From a virus: 22,650 nucleotides of DNA. The notes beneath the pieces were generated by a model, which saw only the letters and a program-made list of their open reading frames with translations, was not told the origin of the DNA and searched no databases. A program made the position numbers and the translations under genes. Shown here in pieces: positions 4,479 through 11,652 of the stretch (position 1 is the stretch's first letter; each line of letters opens with the position of its first letter). The stretch spans positions 1 through 22,650 of IMG/VR virus record IMGVR_UViG_3300009481_000113. The stretch is one strand, 5' to 3'.

Positions 4479-5096
4479 TTATTTTTTTTCACCGGGTTGC
4501 GATTCTAAAAGTGAAAAATTAGCAGCTACACTTATTCTAGTCACATCCGATCTAAAATTAGCAACCGAATGAGTTAGATTCCAAGGAAAAATAAAAAAGT
4601 CTCCTATCTCGGGTTTAAACTCAAATGAACGAGTATGAAAAGGCTGCGGATTTCCTGTAATAAACATTAAAGAACCAGGCCCACTACCAGTACCTTTCCA
4701 TTCCCTTTGTTCTTTTTTAATTTCATCAGGAATATCTATAAATAATACTGAAGATAAGTCACAACCATTATGGACATGAGGAGGATTAGATTCTCCTTTT
4801 TTCATAAAGTTAACCCATGCGTGGTTCACTTTAATTCCTTCCAGGTTTACACCATACCAATTTTGATGAGCGTTTTGGTATGCCTTAAAATAAGGTTTTA
4901 TAATATTTAAGTATTCAAATTTATCAATTACCCTTTCGTCTTTAATAATACCAGCTAAATTGCTCGAAAAATTTTCTGTGGCAGCATTACAAATTTTTTT
5001 AAATTCTTTAATATCTTCAAGTTTTACTCTACTTTTAAAGAGTAATGGTCCCCAAGGGTAAGTAGTATATTCTATTTTTTCTCTCTCAAGCCCCAT
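4479..5096 (-). CDS. 2OG-Fe(II) oxygenase family protein
   Basis: A 205-residue protein with the double-stranded beta-helix metal site of phage 2-oxoglutarate/Fe(II) oxygenases. NPPHVHNGCDLS (about residues 104-115) supplies the proximal metal ligands. GDFFIFPWNLTHSV (about residues 166-179) supplies the distal His, and RISVAANF carries the Arg expected to bind the 2-oxoglutarate carboxylate. The preceding HAWVNFMKKGE segment matches the usual pre-strand of this family. Such enzymes hydroxylate proteins or nucleobases; no substrate can be read from the sequence. Its start overlaps the stop of the upstream oxygenase-like gene by 25 bases, so the pair is probably co-translated. The ribosome binding site (AAAGGA) is 11 or more bases away, consistent with coupling. 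Confidence 0.75.
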   Translation of the reverse strand: MGLEREKIEYTTYPWGPLLFKSRVKLEDIKEFKKICNAATENFSSNLAGIIKDERVIDKFEYLNIIKPYFKAYQNAHQNWYGVNLEGIKVNHAWVNFMKKGESNPPHVHNGCDLSSVLFIDIPDEIKKEQREWKGTGSGPGSLMFITGNPQPFHTRSFEFKPEIGDFFIFPWNLTHSVANFRSDVTRISVAANFSLLESQPGEKK

Positions 5097-7055: not shown

Positions 7056-8444
7056 TTATAGGACTTTTTTGATAGCAAGCCCTATTTCTCTTGCGATTTG
7101 TGGGACAATTGCGTTGCCGAGGGCTTTGATTCGGTTAACTCTACCTTTGTCCAATTCATAGGAAATCCCATGAGGAACTCCACGAAAGTCGGATTCAATT
7201 TTCCACCAACTGCTACATTGAGATTCGTCCCTTTTCTTTTGTATTGACTCGGCCCTGCGTTGTTCTTGCTGTCGTTCACTGTTGGAGTGGGTAACATTTT
7301 GTTTTTCTCCAAATACAGCATCGCGTCTGATAGTTTTGCTCCGAATGTCGAGTCGGGTTTGTTCTTCTTTCTTAGGATAAAAGCTCCAGATTTGGTTTGC
7401 TCCACTCTGCTTGATTGTTCTCCCCCTTCCTCGCAACCCACTGTCGGTGTTGGATACATCTTCACATGTTTTGCTAGAGTCATTCTTCTCTTGGGAGAGG
7501 GGTTCACATTTTTTGAATCGTCCACTTGTGGAGTTGGATACATTTGAACTGCGTGTCTCAATGCAAACTGAAGATTGATTCCCTCTTTTTTTTTCTCTGC
7601 TGCTCTCTTCTTCCAAGCTTCCAATGTCTCCGATTGATTCGCTAGATGATCTGATCTCTGTGGTGTTGGATACATCTTCACTGCTCTGTTTAATGTTATT
7701 TGGACGTGTTTGTTTGTCTTTGGGTTGTAAGCTCTCTCGTTCGGTTTTAAAGGTGTTCCATCCTTGCTCGTCAACGTTTCTAGAAACTCTCCTTCTCCCG
7801 CCTCCTGTGCTGATGGAGTTGGATACATTCTCATTGTCTCTGGATCCACTTGTTCTCTCAGATTCGATGGTTTGGTTCTGCCCTTCCTGTGACCCTCCAT
7901 TAATTTCTTGGTCCCTGCAGCGCTTCTCGGCGGCAAGTGATCCATTGTGTTCGGAGTGGCCAATAATCCAAACTCTGTTCCTTTTGTGCCAAGCACCGAT
8001 GCCTGAAGCTGGAATAAGGAAACATTGGACTTCGAAACCTTCACCTTCCAAGTCATCTTGCACCTGTCGGAGTACCATGCCGTCTTGGATGTTAATAATT
8101 CCTTGCACATTTTCCCCAATAACGAATTGGGGTTTGACTTCCCTAATGATTCTAAACATGTCTGGCCAGAGATATCTGTCGTCACTTGTTCCTTTTTGGT
8201 TTCCTGCGACTGACATTGGTTGGCAGGGAAATCCTCCAGTAATGACATCTGCTTCGAATTCTTTTCCTTTGACATTTTTTATATCCTCCTCAATGGGTAT
8301 GTTTGGAAAATTCTTATTTAATACTTTAATACAATAAGGATCTTTTTCAACAAATTTAATTGTTTCAAACGCTCCCGTAGAATGTAACCCTAAACTAAAT
8401 CCACCTATTCCACTAAATAAATCTAAAATCTTTAATTTTTTCAT
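7056..8444 (-). CDS. dcm: DNA cytosine-5 methyltransferase (Dcm type)
   Basis: A 462-residue enzyme transferring a methyl group from S-adenosylmethionine to C5 of cytosine in DNA. Motif I is DLFSGIGG (residues 8-15), motif IV GGFPCQP with catalytic Cys74, motif VI ENVQG (111-115), then HKRNRVWIIG (153-162), and motif X ALGNAIVPQIA (441-451) near the C-terminus. Residues about 165-425 form a long low-complexity region rich in Ser, Asn, Glu and Arg with repeated [D/N]VSN[S/T] units, where a target-recognition domain would lie. The ATG overlaps the stop of a 27-residue membrane peptide (ATGA). G+C is visibly higher than in neighbours (50% in 7861-7920). A second long frame (7082-8275) is nested in the +1 frame. 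No partner restriction enzyme is visible, so self-protection is the likely role. Confidence 0.9.
   Translation of the reverse strand: MKKLKILDLFSGIGGFSLGLHSTGAFETIKFVEKDPYCIKVLNKNFPNIPIEEDIKNVKGKEFEADVITGGFPCQPMSVAGNQKGTSDDRYLWPDMFRIIREVKPQFVIGENVQGIINIQDGMVLRQVQDDLEGEGFEVQCFLIPASGIGAWHKRNRVWIIGHSEHNGSLAAEKRCRDQEINGGSQEGQNQTIESERTSGSRDNENVSNSISTGGGRRRVSRNVDEQGWNTFKTERESLQPKDKQTRPNNIKQSSEDVSNTTEIRSSSESIGDIGSLEEESSREKKRGNQSSVCIETRSSNVSNSTSGRFKKCEPLSQEKNDSSKTCEDVSNTDSGLRGRGRTIKQSGANQIWSFYPKKEEQTRLDIRSKTIRRDAVFGEKQNVTHSNSERQQEQRRAESIQKKRDESQCSSWWKIESDFRGVPHGISYELDKGRVNRIKALGNAIVPQIAREIGLAIKKVL
7082..8275 (-). CDS. Protein encoded in +1 frame inside the methyltransferase gene
   Basis: A 397-codon frame lies entirely inside the methyltransferase gene, shifted by +1. 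GAGGAGG at 8285-8291 lies 9 bases before its ATG, better than most ribosome sites here. The product is not random-looking. TAWYSDRCKMTWKVK (about residues 65-79), SLFQLQASVLGTKGTEFGLLATPN (about 86-109), five blocks of [Y/L]PTP, and GGKLNPTFVEFLMGFPMNWTK near the C-terminus match, from memory, a phage protein family often found next to Dcm-type methyltransferases and sometimes labelled methylase. Its biochemical role is unknown to me. The PTP blocks are the same codons that read VSN in the methyltransferase. It could also be a by-product of methyltransferase codon use, but length and start signal argue for translation. Confidence 0.62.
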   Translation of the reverse strand: MSKEKNSKQMSLLEDFPANQCQSQETKKEQVTTDISGQTCLESLGKSNPNSLLGKMCKELLTSKTAWYSDRCKMTWKVKVSKSNVSLFQLQASVLGTKGTEFGLLATPNTMDHLPPRSAAGTKKLMEGHRKGRTKPSNLREQVDPETMRMYPTPSAQEAGEGEFLETLTSKDGTPLKPNERAYNPKTNKHVQITLNRAVKMYPTPQRSDHLANQSETLEAWKKRAAEKKKEGINLQFALRHAVQMYPTPQVDDSKNVNPSPKRRMTLAKHVKMYPTPTVGCEEGGEQSSRVEQTKSGAFILRKKNKPDSTFGAKLSDAMLYLEKNKMLPTPTVNDSKNNAGPSQYKRKGTNLNVAVGGKLNPTFVEFLMGFPMNWTKVELTESKPSATQLSHKSQEK

Positions 8445-11037: not shown

Positions 11038-11652
11038 TCATATTTTTAATGCTGTTGATCTATCACTTCTACCTATTACACCTTTTGCAAAAACATTAAA
11101 GGAAAGTGTGTATCTAGTTTCTTTATTATTATTTATAGGAACAAAGTGTTTTAATGTACTAGGAAATAAATATAAACTATTTTTAACATCTGGCATCCTC
11201 CAACTTTCTGAATTTAGATTATTATATTCTTCTACCGCAAATTGAAAAGTAGAAAATAAAGGAGAGTCTCTTTTAAAAGTAATTTGAGATAAACTTTCTG
11301 TTATAAAATATACGGCACTCAATATACTATTAGGGTGAGAATGTTCATGATGATAAGTACCTTGGGGAGTTTTATTTACCCAACTTTGTGTAATATAAAA
11401 TTCTGTCAGATAAGATATTTTTAAATATTTTTTTGTATATTCTTCTATTTTAGAATCAAAATATTTTTTTAAATTAGTTAATTCAGAATGATTTAATATA
11501 TATTGATCAGAAGATGAGTTATTATTACCTTCATTTAAATGATTGGTTTGACACAGTTTTATTAAAAAATTTTTTTCTTTTATAGATATTTGATATTCAT
11601 TAGAATGAAAAAGAGGTATCCCAAAAAGTAAGTGGACTCCAGGGTCTATCAT
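11038..11652 (-). CDS. 2OG-Fe(II) oxygenase
   Basis: A 204-residue protein resembling phage 2OG-Fe(II) oxygenases of the 2OG-FeII_Oxy_5 kind. QSWVNKTPQGTYHHEHSHPNS (about residues 89-109) has the typical 'SWVN...G..H.H.HPNS' block with metal ligands. SAVYFI follows as the next strand. SLYLFPSTLKHFV (about residues 160-172) contains the distal His. RYTLSFNVF carries the co-substrate Arg. Substrate unknown. It starts one base after the LAGLIDADG gene, at the tail of the replication operon, and has no ribosome site, so it is probably coupled. Its C-terminus lies 52 bases from the convergent plus-strand operon. Confidence 0.75.
   Translation of the reverse strand: MIDPGVHLLFGIPLFHSNEYQISIKEKNFLIKLCQTNHLNEGNNNSSSDQYILNHSELTNLKKYFDSKIEEYTKKYLKISYLTEFYITQSWVNKTPQGTYHHEHSHPNSILSAVYFITESLSQITFKRDSPLFSTFQFAVEEYNNLNSESWRMPDVKNSLYLFPSTLKHFVPINNNKETRYTLSFNVFAKGVIGRSDRSTALKI

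Follow-up and report, generated by a model that had tools for sequence, protein, structure and literature searches.

The nested frame in the methyltransferase gene

The DNA analyzed here, referred to as the window, is the 22,650 nt stretch of IMG/VR virus record IMGVR_UViG_3300009481_000113. It carries a C5-cytosine methyltransferase gene (MT), whose product matched the Pfam family DNA_methylase (E 2.2e-48) and PHROG_363 (E 2.4e-70). An earlier inspection of the letters alone (the sequence-only reading) had described a 397-codon ORF with an ATG start, lying wholly inside this gene in the +1 frame, and the ORF listing confirmed it. The PTP repeats and the block GGKLNPTFVEFLMGFP, which that reading had picked out in the product of the nested frame (OV), were both found. 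The features of the locus are listed in Table 1. The GC content rises from 26% in the non-overlapping 5' part of MT to 44-45% in the overlap. Hydrophobic residues make up 16% of the MT segment opposite the OV modules, as compared with 38% of MT residues 1-165, and the segment is likely to be a disordered linker.

Table 1. Features of the MT/OV locus, in coordinates of the window
Feature	Position	Strand	Evidence
MT, ORF of the proposed C5-cytosine methyltransferase catalytic subunit, 462 aa, motifs I-VIII and X	7056..8444	-	Pfam, PHROG, M.HhaI likeness
MT motifs I-VIII (motif I DLFSGIGG 8400-8423, PCQ 8217-8237, ENV 8100-8120)	7959..8444	-	MT dN/dS 0.045 over the overlapped part
Shine-Dalgarno sequence GAGGAGG for OV, 9 nt before its ATG, inside MT codons (PIEED)	8285..8291	-	
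OV, nested +1-frame ORF, 397 aa: N domain, six PTP modules, motif IX; proposed second subunit	7082..8275	-	
OV N domain, residues 1-106, +1 frame of the MT stretch ending with motif VIII	7958..8275	-	OV NN/NS 0.165 [0.112-0.234]
MT-frame passenger segment opposite the modules, polar and variable	7218..7958	-	MT dN/dS 1.16 [0.87-1.65]
OV module 1, LLATPN... (cluster m2)	7829..7966	-	
OV module 2, MYPTPSAQ...	7676..7828	-	
OV module 3, MYPTPQRSD... (cluster m6)	7544..7675	-	order relative to module 4 reversed in L006
OV module 4, MYPTPQVDD...	7460..7543	-	
OV module 5, MYPTPTVGC... (cluster m1)	7298..7459	-	
OV module 6, MLPTPTVND...	7208..7297	-	
C5-MTase motif IX in the OV frame, GGKLNPTFVEFLMGFPMNWTK	7145..7207	-	alignment with motif IX of single-chain relatives (hhalign 99.1%; also 98.6%)
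MT motif X, RIKALGNAIVPQIAREIG	7080..7133	-	motif-X-region model matches in the MT frame of other loci

An antisense ORF of 237 aa (7624-8337, plus strand) covers the same region as the MT/OV overlap. In many loci the antisense strand of the overlap is fairly open too (medians 55-100 codons), with no one frame preferred in all of them, and this openness is probably a side effect of the two sense frames. Elsewhere in the window, 2OG-Fe(II) oxygenases of PHROG_81 are encoded by two separate genes on the minus strand (4479-5096 and 11038-11652).

Length of the open frame and start signals

The longest open +1 run in MT is 398 codons. When the MT codons were permuted synonymously, the +1 open run had a mean of 115 and a maximum of 318 codons in 20,000 runs, and none reached the length of OV, as expected from the claim of the sequence-only reading that such a length is unlikely to arise by chance. 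Resampling of codons with the usage of the other genes in the window gave a mean of 73 and a maximum of 223, again with none of 20,000 as long, and the other long genes in the window have at most 88 open +1 codons.

The GAGGAGG sequence is separated from the OV ATG by the 9-nt spacer noted earlier, and no such site was present in the 20 nt before the MT start. Among 234 loci, a Shine-Dalgarno match of at least 5 nt was found at 66% of the OV starts versus 22% of the MT starts and 8% of the other ATGs in the gene. These frequencies support internal initiation of OV at its own Shine-Dalgarno sequence and ATG.

Distribution of the gene pair

Scanning of viral contigs with OV yielded 142 relatives, and in all 80 viral loci kept an overlapping MT relative was found with OV at +1. 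A profile scan detected far more relatives, including bacterial genomes of many phyla. Because the earlier loci had been picked by the OV frame, a second scan used MT residues 1-162 only; the overlapping pair was present in 70 of its 79 loci, and the remaining nine were contigs ending inside the gene, with the OV N domain still visible in +1. Among bacterial loci, 76 of 80 had the pair. In total, 248 distinct overlaps, viral and bacterial, kept both frames open in one and the same register, with a median of 886 nt. GenBank records sometimes list both ORFs, as in Paenibacillus phage Tadhana, whose genes 54 and 55 are each called 'DNA-cytosine methyltransferase'.

OV matched PHROG_1008 ('DNA methyltransferase') with E 8.7e-33, and OV relatives did so with values up to E 1.6e-74; the label is silent on the out-of-frame nesting of the members and on the part of the enzyme that they represent. 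In a single-protein search OV had no match in PDB, NCBIfam or Pfam (none at E<=1 in the latter). The AlphaFold prediction for OV alone was poor (pLDDT 65.6, pTM 0.32), and this low-confidence model gave no meaningful match to PDB structures. OV relatives accompany a C5-MTase, either as an out-of-frame nested ORF, as a partly separated gene or as an in-frame fusion. In the loci examined, an MTase gene or remnant was present at the site of every OV relative, save one spare cassette that adjoins such a gene. The sequence-only reading had recognized OV as a phage protein family in its own right: OV is indeed a real conserved protein with phage relatives, but it is not independent, as it ends in a motif IX that MT lacks (see below).

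Some loci depart from the common layout. On a Bacteroides finegoldii plasmid (L088, 1855-2764) OV is open (298 aa) and the MT frame has two in-frame stops; judged from these frames, MT may be broken and OV intact. On a Paenibacillus polymyxa plasmid (L087, 2417-3729) the motif IX region is duplicated 3' of the OV stop, within the long MT frame. An archaeal (Lokiarchaeota) bin (L229, 2805-3582) carries the 3' end of the pair and an extended OV tail beside a run of N; this sequence is possibly viral or a binning error. L084 and L237 were dropped as single-ORF fusions, as they look like frameshifted or broken copies.

Selection on the two frames

Isolated differences were classed as synonymous or nonsynonymous in each frame, using 56 disjoint pairs with 1-12% divergence. 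Over the part of the overlap that encodes motifs I-VIII, the ratio was 0.045 for MT and 0.165 [0.112-0.234] for OV. Across the module array dN/dS was 0.045 [0.033-0.059] for OV and 1.16 [0.87-1.65] for MT, and in the region of motif IX and the 3' end the values were 0.049 for OV and 0.052 for MT. The pattern recurred at 12-25% divergence, in the loci found with MT only and in the bacterial loci. As a control, the non-overlapping 5' part of MT in the same loci gave pseudo-OV ratios of 0.60 [0.35-1.23] and 0.97 [0.61-1.62]; therefore the OV ratio of 0.165 over motifs I-VIII is not a codon-position artefact. MT-synonymous changes per site were approximately twice as common in this non-overlapping part as in the motif I-VIII overlap.

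Constraint is thus handed over along the gene: in the 5' part it is strong on MT and clear on OV, in the middle it acts on OV only, and at the 3' end on both. Across the module array MT drifts neutrally. The sequence-only reading had suggested that the two proteins may be a co-evolved, dual-coded pair and had proposed measuring constraint in both frames. Both frames are under selection, to a degree that varies along the gene, and their register is kept across loci; free variation in the OV frame, which would have spoken against the proposal, was not seen, and it is instead the MT frame that is free in the central region. Taking the start signals and the substitution pattern together, OV is almost certainly a protein that is made and selected, its translation being predicted from the DNA.

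PTP modules

OV of the window has six modules of 28-54 aa each. In 244 loci 742 modules were counted, 1-7 per OV protein, with a median length of 40.5 aa. The (M)YPTP at the module boundary reads VSNT or VSNS in the MT frame. Module types, defined as coarse single-linkage clusters, recur at different positions and in different contexts, and 20 type pairs occur in both orders. In L006, a close relative, the order of modules 3 and 4 of the window is swapped.

The modules, whose homologues the sequence-only reading had proposed to look for, were also found outside the MT frame, namely in OV extensions, in a cassette of L137 and in single-chain enzymes (see below). In 16 loci (12 distinct) OV extends past the MT stop by a conserved 138-aa stretch that opens with a further module. 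The DNA of this extension is almost wholly single-coding, and its three codon positions differ by 0.109, 0.045 and 0.325, respectively. The extension (...TTIDHWLRSDHCFAYPT...ESDWE) was seen in L016, L021, L033, L036, L060 and others, and had no match in PHROG. In L137 an ORF consisting of a spare module and motif IX lies directly 3' of the MT gene.

The shuffled modules of about 40 aa sit between motifs VIII and IX, as tandem recognition units would, and they probably set target specificity, judging from this position and from their exchange between loci.

Motif IX and single-chain relatives

Over residues 4-161, up to motif VIII, MT resembles M.HhaI, and its C-terminal end carries motif X. 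The MT polypeptide lacks motif IX; a model of this motif matches in the +1 frame of every complete intact pair. In OV, the L, N-P, V-E, M-G, P and W-T of motif IX are invariant or near-invariant.

In actinophage relatives, Ritam007 gp68 among them, a single frame holds motifs I-VIII, several (L)LPTP modules and motifs IX and X. The OV profile aligned with the modules and motif IX of these single-chain MTases (hhalign 99.1%, E 6e-19). A model of one of them (L379) was superimposed on M.HhaI along the whole chain, residues 1-343, with Z 23.8 and rmsd 3.1 (253 aligned residues). The single-chain motif IX-X stretch falls on M.HhaI 274-307 (motif IX 274-294), a match that is collinear, albeit not significant. 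In C5-MTases the target recognition domain (TRD) lies between motifs VIII and IX (PMC5944983). The single-chain alignment, the L379 model and the published TRD position place the modules and motif IX at the position of the small DNA-recognition domain. The single-chain enzymes have nothing between motifs VIII and X that corresponds to the OV N domain.

Gp77/gp76 of Mycobacteriophage Noelle are split with a short overlap and represent an intermediate form. In several actinophage single-chain MTase genes (L328, 2526-3059; L334, 1679-2185; L350, L365, L366 and L369) an OV-N-domain-like +1 ORF was detected with E down to 2e-10, so the nested small protein may persist there too.

Proposed two-subunit enzyme and alternatives

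We propose that OV is very probably the second subunit of the methyltransferase and contributes motif IX. The long frame would encode the catalytic, AdoMet-binding subunit with motifs I-VIII and X, and ribosomes would also start at the internal Shine-Dalgarno sequence and ATG to make OV in the +1 frame. Since OV holds an N domain, the six modules and motif IX, it would supply the small DNA-recognition domain that MT lacks, and the two polypeptides would associate into one active enzyme. There is a high likelihood that a single stretch of DNA encodes a two-polypeptide C5-MTase with exchangeable recognition modules; its translation, subunit association, activity and module specificity are predicted from motif layout and substitution patterns. 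Dual-open cassettes would recombine at the repeated (M)YPTP, which is VSNT/S in the MT frame, and module exchange would alter the specificity and with it the set of host restriction systems that the phage can evade. With more reserve, we lean towards viewing the nested frame as a recombining specificity array, in which dual-open cassettes of about 40 codons are traded between phages and the MT frame, maintained merely without stops along the array, encodes a disordered linker there; one gene would then alternate which frame carries the selected protein.

Programmed ribosomal frameshifting, rather than internal initiation, could fuse motifs I-VIII of MT to the modules and motif IX of OV. Judging from the single-chain relatives, a fusion of this kind can work, and in the bacterial locus L217 the parts are joined in one frame, which could reflect two assembly errors. 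We nevertheless consider frameshifting very improbable, because the conserved and selected OV N domain would be missing from a product shifted after motif VIII, the fusion would lack motif X, which is kept in the MT frame, and a strong Shine-Dalgarno sequence precedes the OV start in most loci. It is very improbable that OV is an independent phage protein, e.g. an anti-restriction or DNA-binding protein, overprinted on the MT gene. Such a protein would fit with the lack of Pfam and PDB matches to OV and with an N domain that the single-chain enzymes do not have in the interval from motif VIII to motif X, but OV ends in the motif IX missing from MT, the modules and motif IX occur in frame in single-chain methyltransferases, and apart from the adjoining spare cassette no OV relative was free of an MTase gene or remnant in the loci examined. 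The last alternative, that codon bias and the repeats of MT have left the +1 frame open and that it yields no protein, has a negligible probability and is already contradicted by the substitution pattern. In its favour, the overlap is unusually open on the antisense strand as well (237 aa in the window). Against it, no shuffled sequence matched OV in length, the OV frame is under purifying selection where MT is neutral, and it runs past the MT stop as conserved single-coding DNA with the codon-position differences given above.

Comparison with known systems

In its layout, the two-subunit enzyme proposed here most resembles M.EcoHK31I (YGGCCR). Lee, Kam and Shaw reportedly found in 1995 that its small subunit is encoded inside the large one in another frame and that both are needed for activity; the OV gene likewise lies within the MT gene in another frame. 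By published motif layout, the large subunit of M.EcoHK31I contains motifs I-VIII and X, and motif IX alone is on the small subunit (PMC3404938), as in MT and OV. The predicted TRD of M.EcoHK31I was placed in the large subunit (PMC3404938), whereas here the module array is in the nested frame and MT is neutral across it. Set beside the M.EcoHK31I small subunit, OV has 397 aa and six modules. M.AquI is also split into two polypeptides within the variable region (PMC3404938), but motifs IX and X are both on its small subunit; here motif X stays in the MT frame, and the arrangement is not of the M.AquI type. Noelle gp77/gp76 looks AquI-like.

The C5-MTases of the Bacillus phages SPR and H2 have tandem target recognition domains and are multispecific (PMC8936443). 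These domains resemble the PTP array, but they are in one polypeptide and one frame, and several recognition sequences have been reported for them, whereas the recognition role of the OV modules is putative. The ShiLan domain is an HNH endonuclease concealed in an alternative frame of an actinophage methylase gene (PMC11855218). Like OV, it is a second protein encoded within a phage methylase gene but not in the methylase frame. It is a mobile HNH insertion with no detectable Shine-Dalgarno sequence, whereas OV is not an insertion and is kept in nearly every relative. A hidden HNH of the ShiLan type was rejected for OV, which had no HNH match (no Pfam match at E<=1).

In the literature searched, which reached few subscription papers, no report of the nested modular form in phages was found. 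To our knowledge, few cases of long same-strand nesting in bacteria and phages have selection shown for both products. What is new here is that the modules form a shuffled array, that the catalytic frame drifts neutrally across this array, and that the arrangement is so broadly distributed.

The MT/OV nesting is widespread and has been largely hidden by annotation that calls the whole long frame a methyltransferase; despite this label, about half of the MT frame is under no detectable protein-level constraint. The pair offers a natural system for studies of dual coding and a source of split methyltransferases with exchangeable putative recognition modules, and it makes changes of methylation specificity in phages testable at the bench.
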